Shown: positions 22,018 through 29,920 of the stretch, piece after piece
How the letters are laid out: every line of letters begins with the position of its first letter
Numbering within the stretch: position 1 is the first letter of the stretch
Source: Paraburkholderia ginsengiterrae
GTDB taxonomy: Bacteria > Pseudomonadota > Gammaproteobacteria > Burkholderiales > Burkholderiaceae
DNA length: 41,122 nt
Direction: 5' to 3'
Assembly: GCF_001645125.1 (NCBI RefSeq)
Contig: NZ_LXKA01000346.1
Span: 1 to 41,122 of the forward strand
Translations under genes and position numbers: made by a program
Notes under the pieces: model-generated
What the model was told of the DNA's origin: nothing
The model's database searches: none
Seen by the model: the letters and a program-made list of their open reading frames with translations, nothing else

Positions 22018-22226
22018 TCTGGTTATAGGCCTTGCCTGAGGTCGCTTCGTCTGAGCACAGCCTTGAAGTGTGTCCATGAGTGGCGGCGCTGTCCAGTCCA
22101 TCCAGGACGGTCCTGAGGCGCGCCGGCCGCGTTGAGAAAACGCTTGCGCGCAGGCCATGAATTGGGCGTCAGATGCCTAGGCGCCGTCAGCGTGTAAACT
22201 GCTGACTTTTTTGTGATATCGGTGGT

Positions 22227-22991
22227 ATGTTGCAAGCCCCCCAGCGCACAGCTCTCAGTGGCCCGGCGCTCATCCGCTTACTGGCTCGCCTCGCGGATGT
22301 CGATGTTCCCGAATCCAGGCAATCGCTCTCGGACCGGCTCAGCCAGTGGCTCGGCTGGACCGACGCCATTGCGCTGTCCTCGGCGCTGAACAGCAATCCG
22401 ACTGCCGTCGCCGCGCACGCGCGCGCGTTCGGCAGCGCGGAGGAGGACGCGTGCGTGCGCGTGCGTGACGCGTTGGCGCAGACCATTACGGGCAAGAGCG
22501 GTTCTGCCGCCGACCGGCGGCGCGTGTCCGGACACGGGTTGGTCAGGACCGCGTCCCGGACTGCGCCCGTCGAGGAAGTGGCCGATTTTGCGGTGTTTCG
22601 CCAGCGCTACCTGACCATCCAGCAGTCGATGGAGACGGACATTGGCAATCTGCGCGGCCGCCTGCGGAGCATGCTGGCCGCCAGAACGCCGGCCATGGCG
22701 CGGCTCGCGGTGGTGGACGCCGTCATGGAGCGGGCGCTGAGCGAGCGTGAGCGGAGTCTGCTGGCGTCGGTGCCCGTACTGCTCGCCGGACACTTCGAGC
22801 GCCTGCGCGAAGCGGAGCAGACGGCGCTGGCCGCCGCGGAAGCCTCGGGCGATGCCGCGCCCGACGCGACGGTCGCGCCCGGTACATGGCAGGAGACGTT
22901 CCGCAAGGATATGCAGAGCGTGCTGCTGGCCGAACTGGAAGTTCGTTTTCAACCGGTCGAAGGGTTGCTCGCCGCCCTTCGCACCTGCTAA
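22227..22991 (+). CDS. DUF3348 protein, first gene of Zorya-like cluster
   Basis: 254 residues, cytoplasmic, largely alpha-helical. It has the DUF3348 features: an N-terminal LSGPALIRLLARLADVDVPE block, a DWLGWTDA-like segment (SQWLGWTDAIALSSAL) and a C-terminal QETFRKDMQSVLLAELEVRF helix. DUF3348, DUF802, an OmpA-like gene and DUF2894 form a recurrent four-gene unit in Burkholderiales and Xanthomonadales. As far as I recall, defence-system surveys place the DUF3348 and DUF2894 genes in type III Zorya (as zorF/zorG; which is which I cannot confirm). It is 10 bp ahead of the DUF802 gene, so one operon. Molecular function unknown. Confidence 0.82.
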   Translation: MLQAPQRTALSGPALIRLLARLADVDVPESRQSLSDRLSQWLGWTDAIALSSALNSNPTAVAAHARAFGSAEEDACVRVRDALAQTITGKSGSAADRRRVSGHGLVRTASRTAPVEEVADFAVFRQRYLTIQQSMETDIGNLRGRLRSMLAARTPAMARLAVVDAVMERALSERERSLLASVPVLLAGHFERLREAEQTALAAAEASGDAAPDATVAPGTWQETFRKDMQSVLLAELEVRFQPVEGLLAALRTC

Positions 22992-23001
22992 TTGGGACAC
23001 C

Positions 23002-25791
23002 ATGTCCAGATATCGTATTGAATTCGTTGTGTTTTTGGCAGGTTTGGCCGCAGTGTGCTGGATCGCCGCCGGCTACCTTGGTTCGAACCCGCTGGCGTTG
23101 GCCGTTACCTTGCTGATCGGCGTCTGCTATCTGAGCGGTGCGCTTGAATTGCACCGCTACAGCCAGGCCACCGGCACGCTCACGCGCGCCGTGACGGACC
23201 TGGCCGGGCCGCCGCCGAGTCTCGCCGCGTGGCTCGAGCCCTTGCATCCGAGCCTGCGCAACGCGGCGCGTCTGCGTGTCGAGGGCGAGCGCGTGGCCTT
23301 GGCCGGCCCGGCGCTCACGCCGTATCTGGTTGGCCTGCTGGTGCTGCTGGGCATGCTCGGGACGCTGCTCGGCATGGTCGCGACGCTGCGCGGCACCGGG
23401 GCGGCGCTGGAAAGCGCGACGGACCTGCAGGCGATCCGCGCGTCGCTGGCCGCCCCGGTCAAAGGGCTCGGTTTTGCGTTCGGCACTTCGATTGCCGGCG
23501 TGGCCACTTCCGCGATGCTGGGGCTGCTGTCGGCGCTGTGCCGGCGCGAACGCATGCAGGCGGCGCAGATGCTCGACGTCAAGATCGCGACGACCTTGCG
23601 CGTCTACTCGCAGTCCCATCAGCGCGAGGAATCTTTCCGGCTCCTGCAGCGCCAGGCCGAGGTGATGCCCACGCTGGTCGACCGTCTGCAAACGATGGTG
23701 GCGGCAATCGAGCGTCAGGGCCTTGCCGCGAGCGAGCAGCAGGCGGCCAGCCAGGATGCTTTCCACAACAAGGCGGAGGCCGCTTTCACGCGTCTCGCGA
23801 GTTCGGTTGAACAGTCGTTGAAGGCGAGTGTGGCCGACAGCACGCGCGCGGCCGGCGCGGCGCTCCAGCCGGTCATGGAAGCCACGATGGCAGGTCTCGC
23901 GCGCGAGACCACCGCGATGCACGGCACTGTCACGCACGCCGTGCAGCAGCAGTTGGACGGATTGACGAGCGGCTTTGAGGCGGCGACGTCGAACGTCGCG
24001 GAGATCTGGAACCAGGCCCTGGCGGGTCACCGGCGTGCGAGCGAGGAACTGGCGCAGCATTTGCGCGCCTCGCTGGACGGCTTTACGGAAACGTTCGAAC
24101 AGCGTTCGGCCGGTTTGCTGGACGGAGTCTCAGCCCGTCTTGATGCTACGGCCGATAGCGTGTCGAAGGCGTGGCACGAGGCGCTGTCGAGACAGGAGAG
24201 CGTCGGCGAAAAGCTGGCGGCAGGTAATCAGCAAGCACTGGCGGAAGCCGCGGCAACTTTTGAACGGCATTCGGCTGCTGCGGCGGCGACTTTCGAGCAG
24301 CACGTGGCGACGACAGCGACGACCTTCGGGCAGCAAGCGGCGACGACCGCTGCGACTCTGGAGCAGCACGTAGCGACGACTGCAGCGACCCTTGAGCAGC
24401 ATTCCGCGGCAGCCGCTGCGGCCTTCGAAAAACATGCGACGTCGGCTGCGGCAGCCTTCGAACAACATTCAACCGCTGCTGCTGCGACTTTCGAGCAGCA
24501 CTCGACCGCTGCTGCGGCGACCTTCGGGGAGCATTCGACTGCGGCTGCGGCGACCTTCGGGGAGCATTCGGCTGCGGCTGTGGCGACCTTCGGGCAGCAT
24601 TCTGCTGCAGCCGCTGCGGCGTTCGAGCAGCATTCGACAGCTGCTGTGGCGACTTTTGGCCAGTATTCGAGCACGGCTGCTGCGGCCTTCGAGCAACACG
24701 CGGCGTCGCTGCTGCGCGGCGTGAATCAGTCGCACGCGGATTTGCAGGCGGCGCTGGCCTCGAAGGACGAAGCGCGGCTTGCTGTCTGGACCGAGACCCT
24801 CGGTGCGACCGCCGCGACGTTGAGCCAGGAATGGGAGCAAGTGGGCGCGCGCACCGCGAGCCGTCAACAGGACATCTGCGACACGCTGGCACAAACCGCG
24901 CGCGATATCTCGGCTCAGACGCAGGCGCACGCGAGCGAAACGATGGCCGAGATCGGCCGGATCGTGGAGGTCGCGGCGCAAGCTCAGCAGGCCGCGGCGA
25001 ATCTGCAGGCAGAACTCGCTGCGAAGGACGAAGCACGCCTCGCCGCATGGACCGGGGCGCTCGATGCGATGGCCTCTGGCTTGAACGAGGCATGGGAACA
25101 GGCAGGCGCGCGCACCGCGAGCCGCCAGCAGGAAATCTGCGAGACGCTCGCGCAAACCGCGCGTGATATTTCGGCTCAGACGCAGACCCATGCGAGCGCG
25201 ACGATCGCCGAAATCGGGCAACTCGTGCAGGCGGCTTCGGAAGCACCCAAGGCGGCCGCCGAAGTCGTGGCCGAACTGCGTCAGAAGCTGTCCGACAGCA
25301 TGGTGCGCGACACGGCGATGCTGCAGGAGCGCAGCCGTTTGCTGGAAACGCTGGAAACCCTGCTCGACGCGGTCAATCATGCGTCCACCGAGCAGCGCAC
25401 GGCGGTGGATGCGCTGGTCGCCACATCGGCGGATCTGCTCGAGCGCGTGGGTACGCGATTCACGGACCACGTCGAGCACGAAACCGGCAAGCTCGGCGCA
25501 GTTGCCGCGCAAGTCACCAGCAGCGCCGTGGAAGTGGCGAGCCTTGGAGAAGCGTTCGGCGGCGCCGTGCAAGTGTTCGGCGAATCGAACGACAAGCTGG
25601 TGGCGCATCTGCAGCGTATCGAAACCGCGCTCGACAAATCCCTCGCGCGCAGTGACGAGCAGCTTGCGTACTACGTCGCGCAAGCGCGGGAAGTCATTGA
25701 CCTGAGCGTGATGTCGCAGAAGCAGATTGTCGAAAACCTGCAGCAGCTCGCCGCCGGCCGGCGTGCGTCAGCCGGAGTTGAAGCCGCATGA
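23002..25791 (+). CDS. zorA: DUF802 protein: MotA/ExbB/ZorA-like channel subunit with long coiled tail
   Basis: 929 residues. Four membrane helices lie at about 6-26, 29-49, 107-128 and 155-180. The third and fourth match the MotA/TolQ/ExbB channel pattern: LVGLLVLLGMLGTLLGMV and APVKGLGFAFGTSIAGVATS. Everything after ~185 is a huge predicted cytoplasmic helical tail. It includes 14 hendecad repeats (417-570) and an 87-residue duplication (581-667, 668-754). This is the architecture of ZorA, the Zorya stator subunit. Start: ATG 23002 with GGGA upstream; the open frame back to 22747 is inside DUF3348. Its TGA overlaps the next ATG (ATGA). Known annotation would be DUF802; the ZorA-like role is my inference from topology, partner and motifs. 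Confidence 0.85.
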   Translation: MSRYRIEFVVFLAGLAAVCWIAAGYLGSNPLALAVTLLIGVCYLSGALELHRYSQATGTLTRAVTDLAGPPPSLAAWLEPLHPSLRNAARLRVEGERVALAGPALTPYLVGLLVLLGMLGTLLGMVATLRGTGAALESATDLQAIRASLAAPVKGLGFAFGTSIAGVATSAMLGLLSALCRRERMQAAQMLDVKIATTLRVYSQSHQREESFRLLQRQAEVMPTLVDRLQTMVAAIERQGLAASEQQAASQDAFHNKAEAAFTRLASSVEQSLKASVADSTRAAGAALQPVMEATMAGLARETTAMHGTVTHAVQQQLDGLTSGFEAATSNVAEIWNQALAGHRRASEELAQHLRASLDGFTETFEQRSAGLLDGVSARLDATADSVSKAWHEALSRQESVGEKLAAGNQQALAEAAATFERHSAAAAATFEQHVATTATTFGQQAATTAATLEQHVATTAATLEQHSAAAAAAFEKHATSAAAAFEQHSTAAAATFEQHSTAAAATFGEHSTAAAATFGEHSAAAVATFGQHSAAAAAAFEQHSTAAVATFGQYSSTAAAAFEQHAASLLRGVNQSHADLQAALASKDEARLAVWTETLGATAATLSQEWEQVGARTASRQQDICDTLAQTARDISAQTQAHASETMAEIGRIVEVAAQAQQAAANLQAELAAKDEARLAAWTGALDAMASGLNEAWEQAGARTASRQQEICETLAQTARDISAQTQTHASATIAEIGQLVQAASEAPKAAAEVVAELRQKLSDSMVRDTAMLQERSRLLETLETLLDAVNHASTEQRTAVDALVATSADLLERVGTRFTDHVEHETGKLGAVAAQVTSSAVEVASLGEAFGGAVQVFGESNDKLVAHLQRIETALDKSLARSDEQLAYYVAQAREVIDLSVMSQKQIVENLQQLAAGRRASAGVEAA
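24250..24711 (+). repeat. 33-bp tandem repeat, 14 units (hendecad coiled-coil array)
   Basis: Fourteen uninterrupted 33-bp units, each encoding an 11-residue AATFEQHSTAA-like unit, with Phe (Leu in units 4-5) at position 4 and His at position 7 in 12 of 14. Eleven-residue periodicity is the signature of right-handed or straight coiled coils. Units are related but not identical at DNA level. Confidence 0.92.
24742..25263 (+). repeat. 261-bp direct duplication inside the DUF802 tail
   Basis: Copy 1 (24742-25002) and copy 2 (25003-25263) each encode 87 residues, beginning LQAALASKDEARLA and LQAELAAKDEARLA and sharing GARTASRQQ and TLAQTARDISAQTQ. They are adjacent with no spacer. This lengthens the helical tail by a fixed module. 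Confidence 0.9.
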
Positions 25792-26435
25792 CCGAGGACA
25801 TCGACGGCGGCGTGGAGCCGGCCGCACCGATATGGCCGGTCTTCGGCGATCTGATGTCGGTGCTGTTGGGCGCGTTCGTGCTGATCCTGGTCGGCGTGAT
25901 CGGCGTGCAACTGGAACTCTCGAGCAAGCTGGAGCAGGAGGTCAAACAGCGTCAGCTGGAAACGCAGCGCCGCAAGACGCTGGAGCAGGCGCTGGCCGGG
26001 CCGCTTGCGGCCGGGCGCGTGACGCTGGTGAACGGGCGTATCGGTATCAGCGGCAACGTGCTGTTCGCGCTGAACTCGGATCAACTGCAGCCGCAAGGCC
26101 GGGATCTGCTGAAGAGCCTCGCCGGGCCGCTCTCCGCGTATTTGCAGACCAACGACGAAATCCTGATGGTGAGCGGTTTTACTGACGATCAGCGTCTGCG
26201 GGAAGGCAACCGGCGCTTTGCCGACAACTGGGAACTGTCGGCGCAGCGAGCGTTGACCGTGACGCGCGCGTTGATCGACGACGGTGTGCCCGCATCGTCG
26301 CTCTTTGCAGCCGCGTTTGGCTCCGGGCAGCCTGTGAGTTCGAATGCCGACGAGCAGGGCCGCGCCAAAAACCGCCGCGTGGAAATCGCGCCGGTCCCGA
26401 GGCCGTCCACCGCAGCGGTGAAACCTCATGAGTGA
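25788..26435 (+). CDS. zorB: OmpA/MotB-like protein, ZorB-type stator partner
   Basis: 215 residues. A short N-terminal cytoplasmic segment precedes one membrane helix (about 18-40) containing Asp21 in PVFGDLMSVLLGAFVLIL. That position matches the ion-carrying Asp of MotB/ZorB stators. A coiled linker (41-75) leads to a periplasmic OmpA-like peptidoglycan-binding domain, with LFALNSDQLQPQGRDLL, GFTDDQRL, NWELSAQRALTVTRAL and AKNRRVEI. It overlaps the DUF802 gene by ATGA and the DUF2894 gene by eight bases, so the three proteins are made together. With DUF802 it should form a 5:2-type ion-driven complex anchored to the cell wall; this is inference from the family. Confidence 0.88.
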   Translation: MTEDIDGGVEPAAPIWPVFGDLMSVLLGAFVLILVGVIGVQLELSSKLEQEVKQRQLETQRRKTLEQALAGPLAAGRVTLVNGRIGISGNVLFALNSDQLQPQGRDLLKSLAGPLSAYLQTNDEILMVSGFTDDQRLREGNRRFADNWELSAQRALTVTRALIDDGVPASSLFAAAFGSGQPVSSNADEQGRAKNRRVEIAPVPRPSTAAVKPHE

Positions 26436-27105
26436 CCACGGCCGCGATGTGGCGAGCGAAGCCCGTGCAACGCTCGACGCCTGGCACGAGCGCGGCGCCG
26501 ATCGTCTGGATCCCGTCCGTTTTCATTTCATCGAGGCGCTGGAGCGACGCACGGCCGGCCACAGCGGCGAGGCGCGGCGCATCCTCGACGAGCGCTTGTC
26601 CGCACTGCTCGAAACGTATGCGGACAATCTCGAAGGCGCGGCATTGGCAACGGAAGAATCCACGGTCCCCGCGGATTCCGCGGAGAGCGCGGCGTTGTCG
26701 ACTGATGAGCCCGCAACGGCAACGCTGGCAGGCTTGCTCGACTACATGGCGAGCCGCGCTCACGACGTGCCTGCGGCCAACGGCTTGCCGCGCGCCGCGT
26801 CGTATCCGGAACTGGCCGCGCTCGATGACTTCAGGCAGATGTGGTCGAAAGTCCGCGCCGAGAAGCAGATGCGCCAGTCGCTGGAGCAGGTGCCGGGCAA
26901 CACCGGTCCGCTCAACTCGAGCAGCCTCGTGCACCGTGCGCTTTCGCTGATGAGCGAGTTGTCGCCGGGTTATCTCACGCAGTTTCTGGGCTACGTCGAC
27001 GCGTTATCGTGGCTGGACCAGATGAATGGTGGCGCCGCCCCAACGGGCAAGGACGCACCACGGGCCGTCAGCGCCGGCAGGAGTGCGCGCGGCAAGGCGC
27101 GCTAG
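26428..27105 (+). CDS. DUF2894 protein, last gene of Zorya-like cluster
   Basis: 225 residues, cytoplasmic and helical. The DUF2894 core is at about 126-195: DDFRQMWSKVRAEKQMRQSL, PGNTGPLNSSSLVHRALSLM and LSPGYLTQFLGYVDALSWLD. The N-terminal half is Ala/Glu-rich and the last 20 residues are basic (SAGRSARGKAR), which might contact nucleic acid; that is speculation. It begins eight bases inside the OmpA-like gene. Together with DUF3348 it is the system-specific partner of the stator pair. Function unknown. Confidence 0.82.
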   Translation: MSDHGRDVASEARATLDAWHERGADRLDPVRFHFIEALERRTAGHSGEARRILDERLSALLETYADNLEGAALATEESTVPADSAESAALSTDEPATATLAGLLDYMASRAHDVPAANGLPRAASYPELAALDDFRQMWSKVRAEKQMRQSLEQVPGNTGPLNSSSLVHRALSLMSELSPGYLTQFLGYVDALSWLDQMNGGAAPTGKDAPRAVSAGRSARGKAR

Positions 27106-27530: not shown

Positions 27531-28301
27531 TCATTTCGTACTGCTGGTCAGCACGCCCGTGCCGGCCACGCGTTTCGATTTCGCGCGGCGCACCAGCAGG
27601 TTCATCGCCTCGACGAATGCGGAGAACGCCATTGCCACGTAGATGTAGGCCTTGGGTACATGCGAGCCGAAGCCCTCCGCAATGAGCGTCATGCCGATCA
27701 CGAGCAGGAAGCTGAGTGCGAGCGTGACGATGGTCGGGTTGCGATCGATAAAGCGCGACAGCGGCTGGGCAGCGAACAGCATCACCATGACCGCGCTGAT
27801 CACCGCGACGAACATGATCGGCATGTGATCGGTCATGCCGACTGCAGTGATGATGCTGTCGACCGAAAACACGATATCGAGCAACAGGATCTGGCCGATC
27901 GCGGCCGCCACCGTCAATTGAGCCGTCGTGGTTGCCTTGCCCTGTGCTTCTTCCGCGTGCATCACGTGATGGTGCATTTCACACGTCGCCTTCCAGACAA
28001 GGAACAGGCCGCCGCCGAGCAGCACCAGATCGCGCCATGAGAACGCGTGGCCGAAGAGCGTGACGGCGGGCGCGGTCAACTGCGCGATCCATGCCACCGT
28101 GCCGAGCAGGCCAAGCCGCAGAACCAGCGCGAGCATGATGCCAAGGCGCTGCGTGTGAGCGCGCTGTGCCTCCGGCAGCTTGTTGCTGAGGATCGAAATG
28201 AAAATCAGGTTGTCGATGCCGAGCACGATTTCCATCACGACCAGCGTGAGGAGCGCGGCCCATGCGGCAGGATCGGCGATGAGAGTGAGCAGGGAGTCCA
28301 T
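27531..28301 (-). CDS. TerC family integral membrane protein
   Basis: 256 residues, about seven membrane helices. The TerC signatures are present: [20 protein letters not shown] in the first helix pair and [17 protein letters not shown] in the middle, with acidic membrane residues that bind Mn2+ in characterised members. TerC proteins export Mn2+ or protect extracytoplasmic enzymes from mismetallation. The start at 28301 is the Met closest to the first helix; the frame is open to 28337 without better evidence. Divergent from an NhaR-like regulator, which may control it. Confidence 0.9.
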
Positions 28302-28372
28302 GGTGTCCGTCAGCGAAGGAATGGTGGTGCGTTGCAATAGCGTTATGATCGCCGACTGGATGCTTCGAATAA

Positions 28373-28416
28373 ATCAGTGATAATCTGATCAACATATCGT
28401 TTTTTTCGACATATCG
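28373..28416. promoter_or_regulatory. Repeats in the terC/LysR divergent region
   Basis: An inverted repeat ATCAG-tgataat-CTGAT (28373-28389) is followed by two direct copies of CATATCG (28393-28399 and 28410-28416), 17 bases apart, ending four bases before the LysR start. Positions suit autoregulation by the LysR protein. No Shine-Dalgarno precedes the LysR ATG, so the second CATATCG occupies that place. Confidence 0.45.
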
Positions 28417-28420
28417 CGCC

Positions 28421-29302
28421 ATGCTCAACTATCGCCATCTGTACTATTTCTGGATCGTCGTGAAGGAGGGCGGCTTTGCGCGCGCGGCCGAGCGCCTCGA
28501 CATGGCCGTTCAAACCATCAGCGCGCAGGTGCGCGAGCTGGAAAAGTCGATCGGACGCCAGTTGCTGAAACCGGCTGGGCGCGGCGTCACGATGACGGAA
28601 GCCGGCGAGTCGGCATTCAATCGTGCGGAGCAGATTTTTCAGCTCGGCGAGGCGCTGCTCGACGAGCTGCGCGAGGCGGGCGGGGAAGGCGTGGCGCGGC
28701 TCGCCGTGGGGCTGTCCGACGGTATTTCGAAGCTGGCGGCGCACGCGCTCCTTGCGCCGGTGCTCGATACGCCGTCGCTCAGGCTCCTGTGTCACGAAGG
28801 CGAGCATGCCGAATTGATGTCCGAACTCGCGCTGCATCGGCTCGATCTGGTGCTCGCCTGCCAGCCGGCGCCGCATAACGCGGACCTGCGCGTGATCAGT
28901 CAGCGCATTGCCGGCTCACCGGTCGACTGGTATGGCCCGGCGGAGATTGTCCGCAAGGCCGCCCGAGCAGGTTTTCCGCAGTGTCTCGCGGACATCCCCG
29001 TGCTACTGCCGACCCGGCACGCGGCGTTGCGCGCGCGGCTCGACCGGTGGTTCGAGACGCACGGTATCCGGCCAAGCATTGTCGGCGAGTTCGAGGATAG
29101 CGCGCTGATGGCGGTATTCGCCGCGCGCGGCCTCGGTGTGTTTCCCCTTGCGGAACTGGGCGCGGAGGACCTGTCGCTGTTGCGGGGCTTGCGCTGGCTC
29201 GGCCGCGCGGATGGCGTGATCGAGGAGATCCACGCCATCCGCTCGCGCCGCGGCCAACATCATGCGCTGGCTTCTCAGGTGGTGGCCGGCGCGCGCCTGT
29301 AA
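28421..29302 (+). CDS. nhaR: LysR-family regulator, NhaR-like
   Basis: 293 residues. The N-terminal winged HTH opens with MLNYRHLYYFWIVVKEGGFA and continues MAVQTISAQVRELEKSIGRQL and AGRGVTMTEAGESAF, close to the NhaR pattern of E. coli (NYNHLYYFW, PQTITGQI). The effector domain runs from about 90. NhaR activates Na+/H+ antiporter genes in E. coli; here no antiporter is adjacent and the divergent neighbour is terC, so ion or metal stress control is likely. The 3' end overlaps the convergent TerB-fold gene by 28 bp. Confidence 0.85.
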   Translation: MLNYRHLYYFWIVVKEGGFARAAERLDMAVQTISAQVRELEKSIGRQLLKPAGRGVTMTEAGESAFNRAEQIFQLGEALLDELREAGGEGVARLAVGLSDGISKLAAHALLAPVLDTPSLRLLCHEGEHAELMSELALHRLDLVLACQPAPHNADLRVISQRIAGSPVDWYGPAEIVRKAARAGFPQCLADIPVLLPTRHAALRARLDRWFETHGIRPSIVGEFEDSALMAVFAARGLGVFPLAELGAEDLSLLRGLRWLGRADGVIEEIHAIRSRRGQHHALASQVVAGARL

Positions 29303-29736
29303 CCGCGCAGCGCGTGTGAAGAGAGGCCCTGCCGGCTGGTGGACGGTGTCAGGTTGGGCCCCCATGCGTTCAACACGGCGGCGAGCAGGGCGATTTCGCC
29401 ATCCGCCAGATAGTCGTCAGCGACCGCCACGGCCACGCACAGGCGAATGACTTTGCGGCGCAACGCCGGATCGTCGATTTCGCCAATCAGGGTGTCGAGC
29501 ATGGTTGCATCGGGATGACCCATCGGCGGCGCGAGCGACATTTGCGCGACCGAGCGGTCCTCGCACAGCGTCTGCACGATCTGCGCGAATTGCTCCGGCG
29601 CAAGACCGAGTTCGCCGGCAATGTTCAACTTCTCCAGCAGGCGCTCTTCCGAACTGCACACATGGCCGTCGGCCGTGATGGCCAGCGCCACGATGCGTGC
29701 GGCGGCTTGAGGGCTATTGCGCGGATAGGTTCGCAT
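29275..29736 (-). CDS. TerB-fold protein of unknown function
   Basis: 153 residues, all-helical. Two acidic motifs typical of TerB-like domains are visible: ALAITADGHVCSSEERLLEKL near 18-38 and AVAVADDYLADGEIALLAAVL near 115-135. These can bind divalent metal. AAGGA eight bases before the ATG at 29736 sets the start; the in-frame extension to 29904 has no support. Its proximity to TerC may be meaningful, since Ter proteins are linked to metal stress, but it is transcribed separately and converges with the LysR gene. Confidence 0.75.
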   Translation of the reverse strand: MRTYPRNSPQAAARIVALAITADGHVCSSEERLLEKLNIAGELGLAPEQFAQIVQTLCEDRSVAQMSLAPPMGHPDATMLDTLIGEIDDPALRRKVIRLCVAVAVADDYLADGEIALLAAVLNAWGPNLTPSTSRQGLSSHALRGYRRAPATT

Positions 29737-29920
29737 GATCGGGATCCTTAAGCGGACAATGTCCGTAGTGAAGATGGATCCCAGTCTGCGGCAGGTTGTG
29801 AGTCGGATAAATCTGCTAATTGTGGATGAACAGTTCGGAAAAAACGAAGTATCGGGAATGGGCCATTCTTCGGATCGCTCCGTAGCGACACGAATCAGGC
29901 CCAAGCGCCGGGTTCGCGCG

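Follow-up and report, generated by a model that had tools for sequence, protein, structure and literature searches.

Results

Gene content and identity of the operon

The window analysed in this work is a stretch of 41,122 nucleotides from Paraburkholderia ginsengiterrae (assembly GCF_001645125.1, contig NZ_LXKA01000346.1, positions 1 to 41,122 of the forward strand). Open reading frame (ORF) analysis and domain searches located four intact genes on one strand between positions 22227 and 27105, in the order DUF3348, zorA, zorB and DUF2894. An initial annotation, made from the sequence alone, had placed a DUF3348, a DUF802 ZorA-like, an OmpA ZorB-like and a DUF2894 gene here, and Pfam and PADLOC searches confirmed all four:

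22227..22991, + strand: DUF3348 protein, 254 aa; Pfam PF11828 (E value 7.1e-93), PADLOC 4.7e-111; predicted all-alpha, mean predicted local distance difference test score (pLDDT) 83.5
23002..25791, + strand: ZorA, 929 aa from the ATG at 23002; MotA-like membrane core with four membrane segments and a predicted long cytoplasmic rod; PADLOC ZorA3, E = 0
25788..26435, + strand: ZorB, 215 aa; one membrane helix and an OmpA-type peptidoglycan domain; PADLOC ZorB3 1.1e-118, OmpA 1.9e-17
26428..27105, + strand: DUF2894 protein, 225 aa; Pfam PF11445 (1.5e-63), PADLOC 6e-81; all-alpha model, mean pLDDT 73.6, predicted template modelling score (pTM) 0.46

The ORF list offered for ZorA a longer GTG frame from 22747. 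The ATG at 23002, 10 bases past the DUF3348 stop codon, was taken as the start; counted from this start, the best PADLOC match covers the query from residue 7 onwards. zorA and zorB overlap in the sequence ATGA, zorB and DUF2894 by 8 bases, and the median overlaps in relatives are the same (4 bases in 124 loci and 8 bases in 127 loci, respectively). Pfam DUF802 matches ZorA in two stretches (7.7e-30). In Xanthomonas citri the DUF802 protein XAC3753 and XAC3754 are listed among the genes changed in planta by quorum sensing through the diffusible signal factor (DSF) (PMC6337780).

All four products match the type III Zorya models of PADLOC by wide margins (E values of 6e-81 or better; 1435.6 bits for ZorA3), and the DUF3348 and DUF2894 genes flank zorAB, which is the arrangement given for type III in PMC8565338. 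Judged by these matches the operon is almost certainly a complete Zorya of type III, an already described type of anti-phage system, as the initial annotation had suggested with reservation. The same report counts 6,401 type III loci and describes protection of E. coli against phages by the type III system of Stenotrophomonas nitritireducens. The nomenclature is not uniform. PADLOC-DB labels the DUF3348 protein ZorG3 and the DUF2894 protein ZorF3, and the text of PMC8565338 has the opposite (ZorF for DUF3348, ZorG for DUF2894); the results section of that paper prints 'zorBC' for type III and its discussion lists ZorA, ZorB, ZorF and ZorG. Three observations go beyond the type III label: a near-core distribution, a conserved promoter-like block, and a ZorA rod whose length often varies in steps of 87 residues.

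The predicted membrane motor

The four-helix ZorA with a tail of about 740 residues and the single-helix ZorB with an Asp residue, as described in the initial annotation, were recovered by hydropathy analysis and alignments:

23023..23541, + strand: ZorA residues 8-180, four membrane helices by hydropathy, T121, T162 and S163 invariant in an alignment of 121 ZorA
25848..25850, + strand: codon of ZorB Asp21, the putative ion-carrying aspartate by analogy with ZorB of types I and II, Asp in 127 of 127 ZorB

The membrane segments of ZorA lie at about 8-26, 30-48, 109-127 and 158-180, leaving about 740-750 residues beyond the last one; the single segment of ZorB is at 22-40. The stretch of helices 3-4, for which a likeness to MotA, ExbB and ZorA had been claimed, matched the PADLOC models ZorA2 (3.9e-8) and ZorA1 (5.3e-7), and residues 109-196 were aligned by phmmer to the type I ZorA of PDB 8VVN (E value 6.8e-4). 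T121, T162 and S163 of ZorA are identical in all 121 loci, and D21 of ZorB together with D133, R196 and R197 of its OmpA domain in all 127. Four loci are the same contigs present twice (L015/L123, L037/L085, L042/L101, L052/L112); without these repeated contigs the numbers are 117 and 123. The membrane Asp of ZorB and the Ser/Thr ring of ZorA, expected of all Zorya types, are both present.

The ZorAB complexes of types I and II are 5:2 assemblies with a five-helix rod, which is required, as are the Asp of ZorB and binding to peptidoglycan (PMC11890865). According to the same source, sodium is bound at the Ser/Thr ring of the type I complex and is absent there from the type II model. Since type III retains polar residues at the ring, a sodium-capable site is possible by this analogy, and the claim goes no further.

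The ZorA rod

The tail of ZorA contains two kinds of repeat:

24217..24711, + strand: array of 15 eleven-residue repeats, ZorA residues 406-570; 61% identity at lag 11, periods of 33, 66 and 99 by Tandem Repeats Finder
24727..24987, + strand: first copy of an 87-residue rod unit, ZorA residues 576-662, found at repeat lag 87
24988..25248, + strand: second copy of the unit, ZorA residues 663-749, found at the same lag

Over residues 576-675 the identity at lag 87 is 66%, and that of the DNA is 73% over 300 bases. The length of ZorA in relatives often changes by the same step as this tandem unit: clusters at 697/698, 784/785, 871/872, 958/959, 1045/1046 and 1132 residues hold 23, 10, 10, 10, 2 and 1 of 124 frames (21, 10, 10, 10, 2 and 1 of 120 without repeated contigs), the remaining frames being of other lengths. 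Periods of 80, 69 or 62 were seen in single members of other clades.

Rod length was taken as the distance separating two conserved anchors. In 67 of 119 rods it departed from the commonest length by an exact multiple of 87, zero included. The rod set had already been freed of L032, L100 and L125 (cut or broken) and of L099 and L121 (no anchor). Six doubtful rows were then removed, namely L109 and L130, whose ZorA frame ends early, and the deep outliers L055-L058; this left 66 of 113 rods at exact multiples (29 of the commonest length and 37 longer). Without repeated contigs the count was 63 of 109, including 26 that have the commonest length. Between the anchors the rods span 297 to 828 residues. 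In the draft genomes of L109, L130 and L099 the ZorA frame stops 0.8-1.1 kb before zorB, by a break or a sequencing error.

The differences in rod length keep the helical phase near 3.64 residues per turn. Collapsed modulo 87, 21 differences gave a coherence of 0.71 at this value, and not one of 2,000 random sets attained it. The 24 differences that are not multiples of 87 gave p 0.001, and so did the 34 differences from 119 alignment-anchored ZorA (1,000 sets). With the phase fixed at 3.5, 3.6 and 3.667 residues per turn p was 0.40, 0.19 and 0.08. Two other forms of the test are given in the Discussion. The repeat pattern and the phase would fit a helical rod. The length classes cannot be explained by fewer than 25 changes on the rpoB tree (44 labelled genomes) or fewer than 22 on the operon tree. 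Some sister species have one and the same rod length, as do all four genomes of g224, and others differ, such as G002 and G003. No published description of the length series was found in a limited literature search.

The phase-keeping series provides evolutionary evidence suggesting that the tail of ZorA acts as a single uninterrupted helical rod, and supplies natural variants for probing the effect of rod length.

The promoter-like block

A conserved element precedes the DUF3348 gene:

22192..22211, + strand: promoter-like block GTGTAAACT-N5-CTTTTT with the -10-like hexamer TAAACT, T-run from 7 bases after; conserved among loci

With at most one mismatch, the motif TGTAAACT was found ahead of the DUF3348 gene in 109 of 119 loci, or in 105 of 115 once repeated contigs are set aside. 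Of the 105 distinct loci, 97 have it 23-26 bases before the start codon. A run of at least four T residues follows the motif in all 105, beginning 7 bases past it in 96; in the upstream control stretch T-runs were never longer than three. If TAAACT is a -10 element, the T-run is located where the transcript would be expected to start. Without mismatches, the full pattern occurs at a single place in the strain's genome of 8.5 Mb. Allowing two mismatches gave 5 places in the genome (7 for the reversed pattern), and the looser GTAAAMT-N6-T5 gave 3 (none reversed).

The block may act as a promoter, and control by slippage at the T-run could be envisaged. The arrangement of TAAACT and a T-run at the predicted start (22192-22227) resembles an initial transcribed region of the slippage type, and the block may be likened to the UTP-controlled promoters of E. 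coli. A sigma-E -35 element was not clearly enriched upstream (8 of 119 loci; 5.7 in shuffles), and a LexA box was found in none of the 119. TTGAC, considered as a -35 element, occurred in 39 of 119 loci against 11.7 expected; because the conserved block itself often reads TTTTTTGACTC, this excess was rejected as evidence for a -35 element.

Distribution and inheritance

DUF3348 was found in 134 of 145 Paraburkholderia genomes and DUF2894 in the same 134; the genus-wide counts rest on these two families. For zorA and zorB the check covered the 47 loci retrieved, the window among them, and each of the 47 had both. Paraburkholderia xenovorans LB400 is among the strains with a copy (L059). In the same 145 genomes the controls ZorC (Zorya I) and HsdS were present in 13 and 63. 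In the family as a whole the operon occurs in 172 of 250 genomes, spread over 11 of 25 genera, and in an even sample of the class in 7 of 274 genomes, including that of the strain itself.

Seven of the 11 genomes without the operon are smaller than 6 Mb, compared with three of the 134 that have it. One of these small carriers (G130, 5.2 Mb) has a damaged copy, in which ZorA is cut, the ZorB frame is lost near residue 160 and the two DUF domains lie about 1.9 kb apart (3.5 kb in the window). The nine operon-less genomes with an rpoB sequence require at least five changes on the rpoB tree.

Trees of the operon proteins (rod left out) and of rpoB were compared for 44 shared genomes. Sixteen of 41 operon-protein splits recur in the rpoB tree (mean 0.25 and maximum 4 in 1,000 shuffles of the names). 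Among the 20 splits with a Shimodaira-Hasegawa-like approximate likelihood ratio (SH-aLRT) support of at least 95, 14 recur, and four are contradicted by a supported split of the rpoB tree. Two genomes from a different family of the class (f14) fall among Burkholderiaceae in the operon tree, where a pair of genus g245 also moves; therefore some transfer occurred. As far as these trees tell, the history of the operon mostly runs parallel to that of rpoB, apart from some transfers.

Of 72,556 plasmid records, 27 carry the operon, all of them of the size of a second chromosome or megaplasmid (0.37-3.5 Mb) and 20 predicted to be non-mobilizable. None of 50,697 phage records matched, and none of 20 pattern matches in IMG/VR was confirmed. 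The ten flanking genes encode a response regulator, a sensor kinase, a symporter, a Sel1 protein, a TonB receptor, an FAD oxidoreductase, a zinc ribbon protein, TerC, LysR and a TerB-like protein. The sole PADLOC match among the ten products was that of the response regulator to CARF models (1.1e-9 and 3.2e-5), a protein which in Pfam consists of Response_reg and GerE. The claim of the initial annotation that the cluster is common on Burkholderiales chromosomes and has no defence-island neighbours was borne out. Within 9 kb, every flanking family was limited to 27 of 127 loci or fewer, so that a fifth gene did not emerge, with a crude gene caller and some loci that end early. The TerC-family and TerB-like genes lie just downstream (27531-29904) with the LysR regulator between them; a TerC neighbour was found in 16 of the 127 loci, including the window.

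DUF3348 and DUF2894

Both flanking proteins are predicted to be all-alpha, DUF3348 with a pTM of 0.79, and DUF2894 with a weak second half. Sequence and fold searches with the two proteins named no enzyme with confidence and gave no confident fold match, which leaves room for an enzyme. The initial annotation had regarded them as effector or regulatory parts. Because both are all-alpha with neither a confident fold match nor a recognised enzyme, the effector part of this claim is weakened, and by the models a role as adaptor or regulator is likelier. The DUF2894 model also scored above its cut-off in the control genome of Corynebacterium glutamicum, where this was unexpected.

Discussion

We consider it probable, with moderate confidence, that the complete type III operon acts as an ion-driven stator whose signalling rod and adaptor DUF proteins serve in the response to phage. 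By homology to the solved ZorAB of types I and II, the stator is probably a rotary assembly of five ZorA and two ZorB, driven by ions and seated in the inner membrane, with the OmpA domain of ZorB holding the peptidoglycan. A disturbance of the cell wall, such as the injection of phage DNA, would open a path for ions along D21 and the T121/T162/S163 ring, upon which ZorA would turn or shift. Its tails of about 740 residues would form a continuous helical-bundle rod taking the signal to the cytoplasm, where DUF3348 and DUF2894, as adaptors or regulators and not nucleases, would couple it to the response, either ion leakage and growth arrest or the recruitment of host enzymes. We infer the stoichiometry, the trigger, the motion of the rod and the roles of the two DUF proteins; phage defence as the main native role is likewise a presumption.

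Several results weigh against this reading. Anti-phage systems are usually gained and lost between relatives, and the near-core, mostly vertical distribution is unlike that of ordinary defence systems; the patchy presence or defence-island or mobile context that is typical of mobile defence systems, and not defining for Zorya, was not found. No nuclease or other effector enzyme was recognised in the operon, and the Pfam MotA/ExbB family did not match ZorA at E values up to 1. In the phase test the 12 differences from 55 anchored ZorA were not significant (p 0.35), and all 29 cleaned differences gave p 0.0105, a weaker form; the random sets ignore kinship, so that these p values, like the others, serve as guides. 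In Burkholderia cenocepacia K56-2, for which Zorya III is predicted, a CRISPR interference (CRISPRi) screen with one phage is reported in which no predicted defence system altered fitness, while the first one or two Zorya III genes changed in transcription (PMC12584637).

It is possible, if on balance unlikely, that the operon serves chiefly as a core envelope machine in Burkholderiales, a stator of the Tol/Ton/Mot kind that senses or maintains the wall, and that the phenotype seen with phages in E. coli is a secondary effect or stems from over-expression. The initial annotation had kept a housekeeping role as a caveat, which the distribution, the flanking genes and the rpoB tree uphold and put into numbers. 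Within the genus 134 of 145 genomes carry the operon (ZorC 13, HsdS 63), 14 of 20 well-supported splits recur in the rpoB tree, the promoter-like block is retained in 105 of 115 distinct loci, and phage records, confirmed IMG/VR matches and small plasmids are lacking (27 of 72,556, all 0.37-3.5 Mb). In addition, the CARF-matching response regulator is the sole PADLOC match among the ten flanking proteins and no nuclease was recognised. Such wide and steady presence argues for a service that the free-living cell nearly always needs, but a constant need for defence of the cell wall would fit it as well. Against a mainly physiological role, the operon is dispensable (absent in 11 of 145 genomes, with at least five changes for the nine with rpoB), is close kin to ZorAB of types I and II and was at times transferred between groups, and a type III relative protects E. 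coli against phages (PMC8565338). Moreover, defence systems can be core-like: type III Zorya in Ralstonia solanacearum is given as an example of a highly conserved defence system (PMC13064858). A combined picture can be offered as a speculation, to which we lend a little less credence. In it the operon would be a core, mostly vertically inherited envelope machine of Burkholderiaceae with its own promoter, perhaps controlled by slippage at the T-run, phage defence would be one of its outputs, and the rod would be an adjustable spacer that reaches a target at a set depth by means of phase-preserving modules of 87 residues. Near-universal in the genus and with no recognised nuclease, the operon may illustrate how a sensor of the cell wall came to be, or continues to be, part of normal physiology.

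Overlapping with the signalling stator that we favour is the idea that ion leakage through ZorAB itself kills the infected cell, the rod doing no more than carry DUF3348 and DUF2894, and these two holding the channel shut. No catalytic partner was recognised, the residues of the ion path are invariant, and according to a proposal in PMC8565338 the two DUF proteins take the place of ZorC, D and E and regulate ZorAB. But a plug alone would not explain rods of 297 to 828 residues, and in types I and II the rod is required, with the nickase ZorE as the effector of type II (PMC11890865), which favours a signalling rod; we regard leakage alone as doubtful. That the operon is inert or decaying in this genome is very improbable. 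The copy in G130, a relative within the genus, has a shortened ZorA region and a broken ZorB frame, but in the window the four frames are intact and the promoter-like block is retained, and the motor residues are invariant in the aligned relatives.

Comparison with known systems

With types I (ZorABCD) and II (ZorABE) the operon shares a MotA-like ZorA with a long tail and a MotB-like ZorB with an Asp and a peptidoglycan domain. Unlike either, it has no helicase or HNH nuclease match. ZorC (PF15611) of type I was matched neither in the genome of the strain nor among the ten flanking proteins scanned, and ZorE/HNH of type II neither in the operon nor among these ten. Component sizes are described as well conserved within types I and II (PMC11890865). 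In our comparison ZorA of type III is the longer and the more variable, with 697 to 1229 aa (cleaned set, several genera), and type I ZorA ranges from 667 to 822 aa (14 loci from 13 Paraburkholderia genomes, counted from the first start codon); the length of type I ZorA thus varies too, within a narrower range and in a smaller sample. With MotAB, PomAB and other 5:2 stators the system has in common the membrane Asp, the Ser/Thr ring and the OmpA-type domain, and the best solved relatives of ZorB include MotB-type proteins; it differs from these stators by its very long ZorA tail and by its partners DUF3348 and DUF2894.

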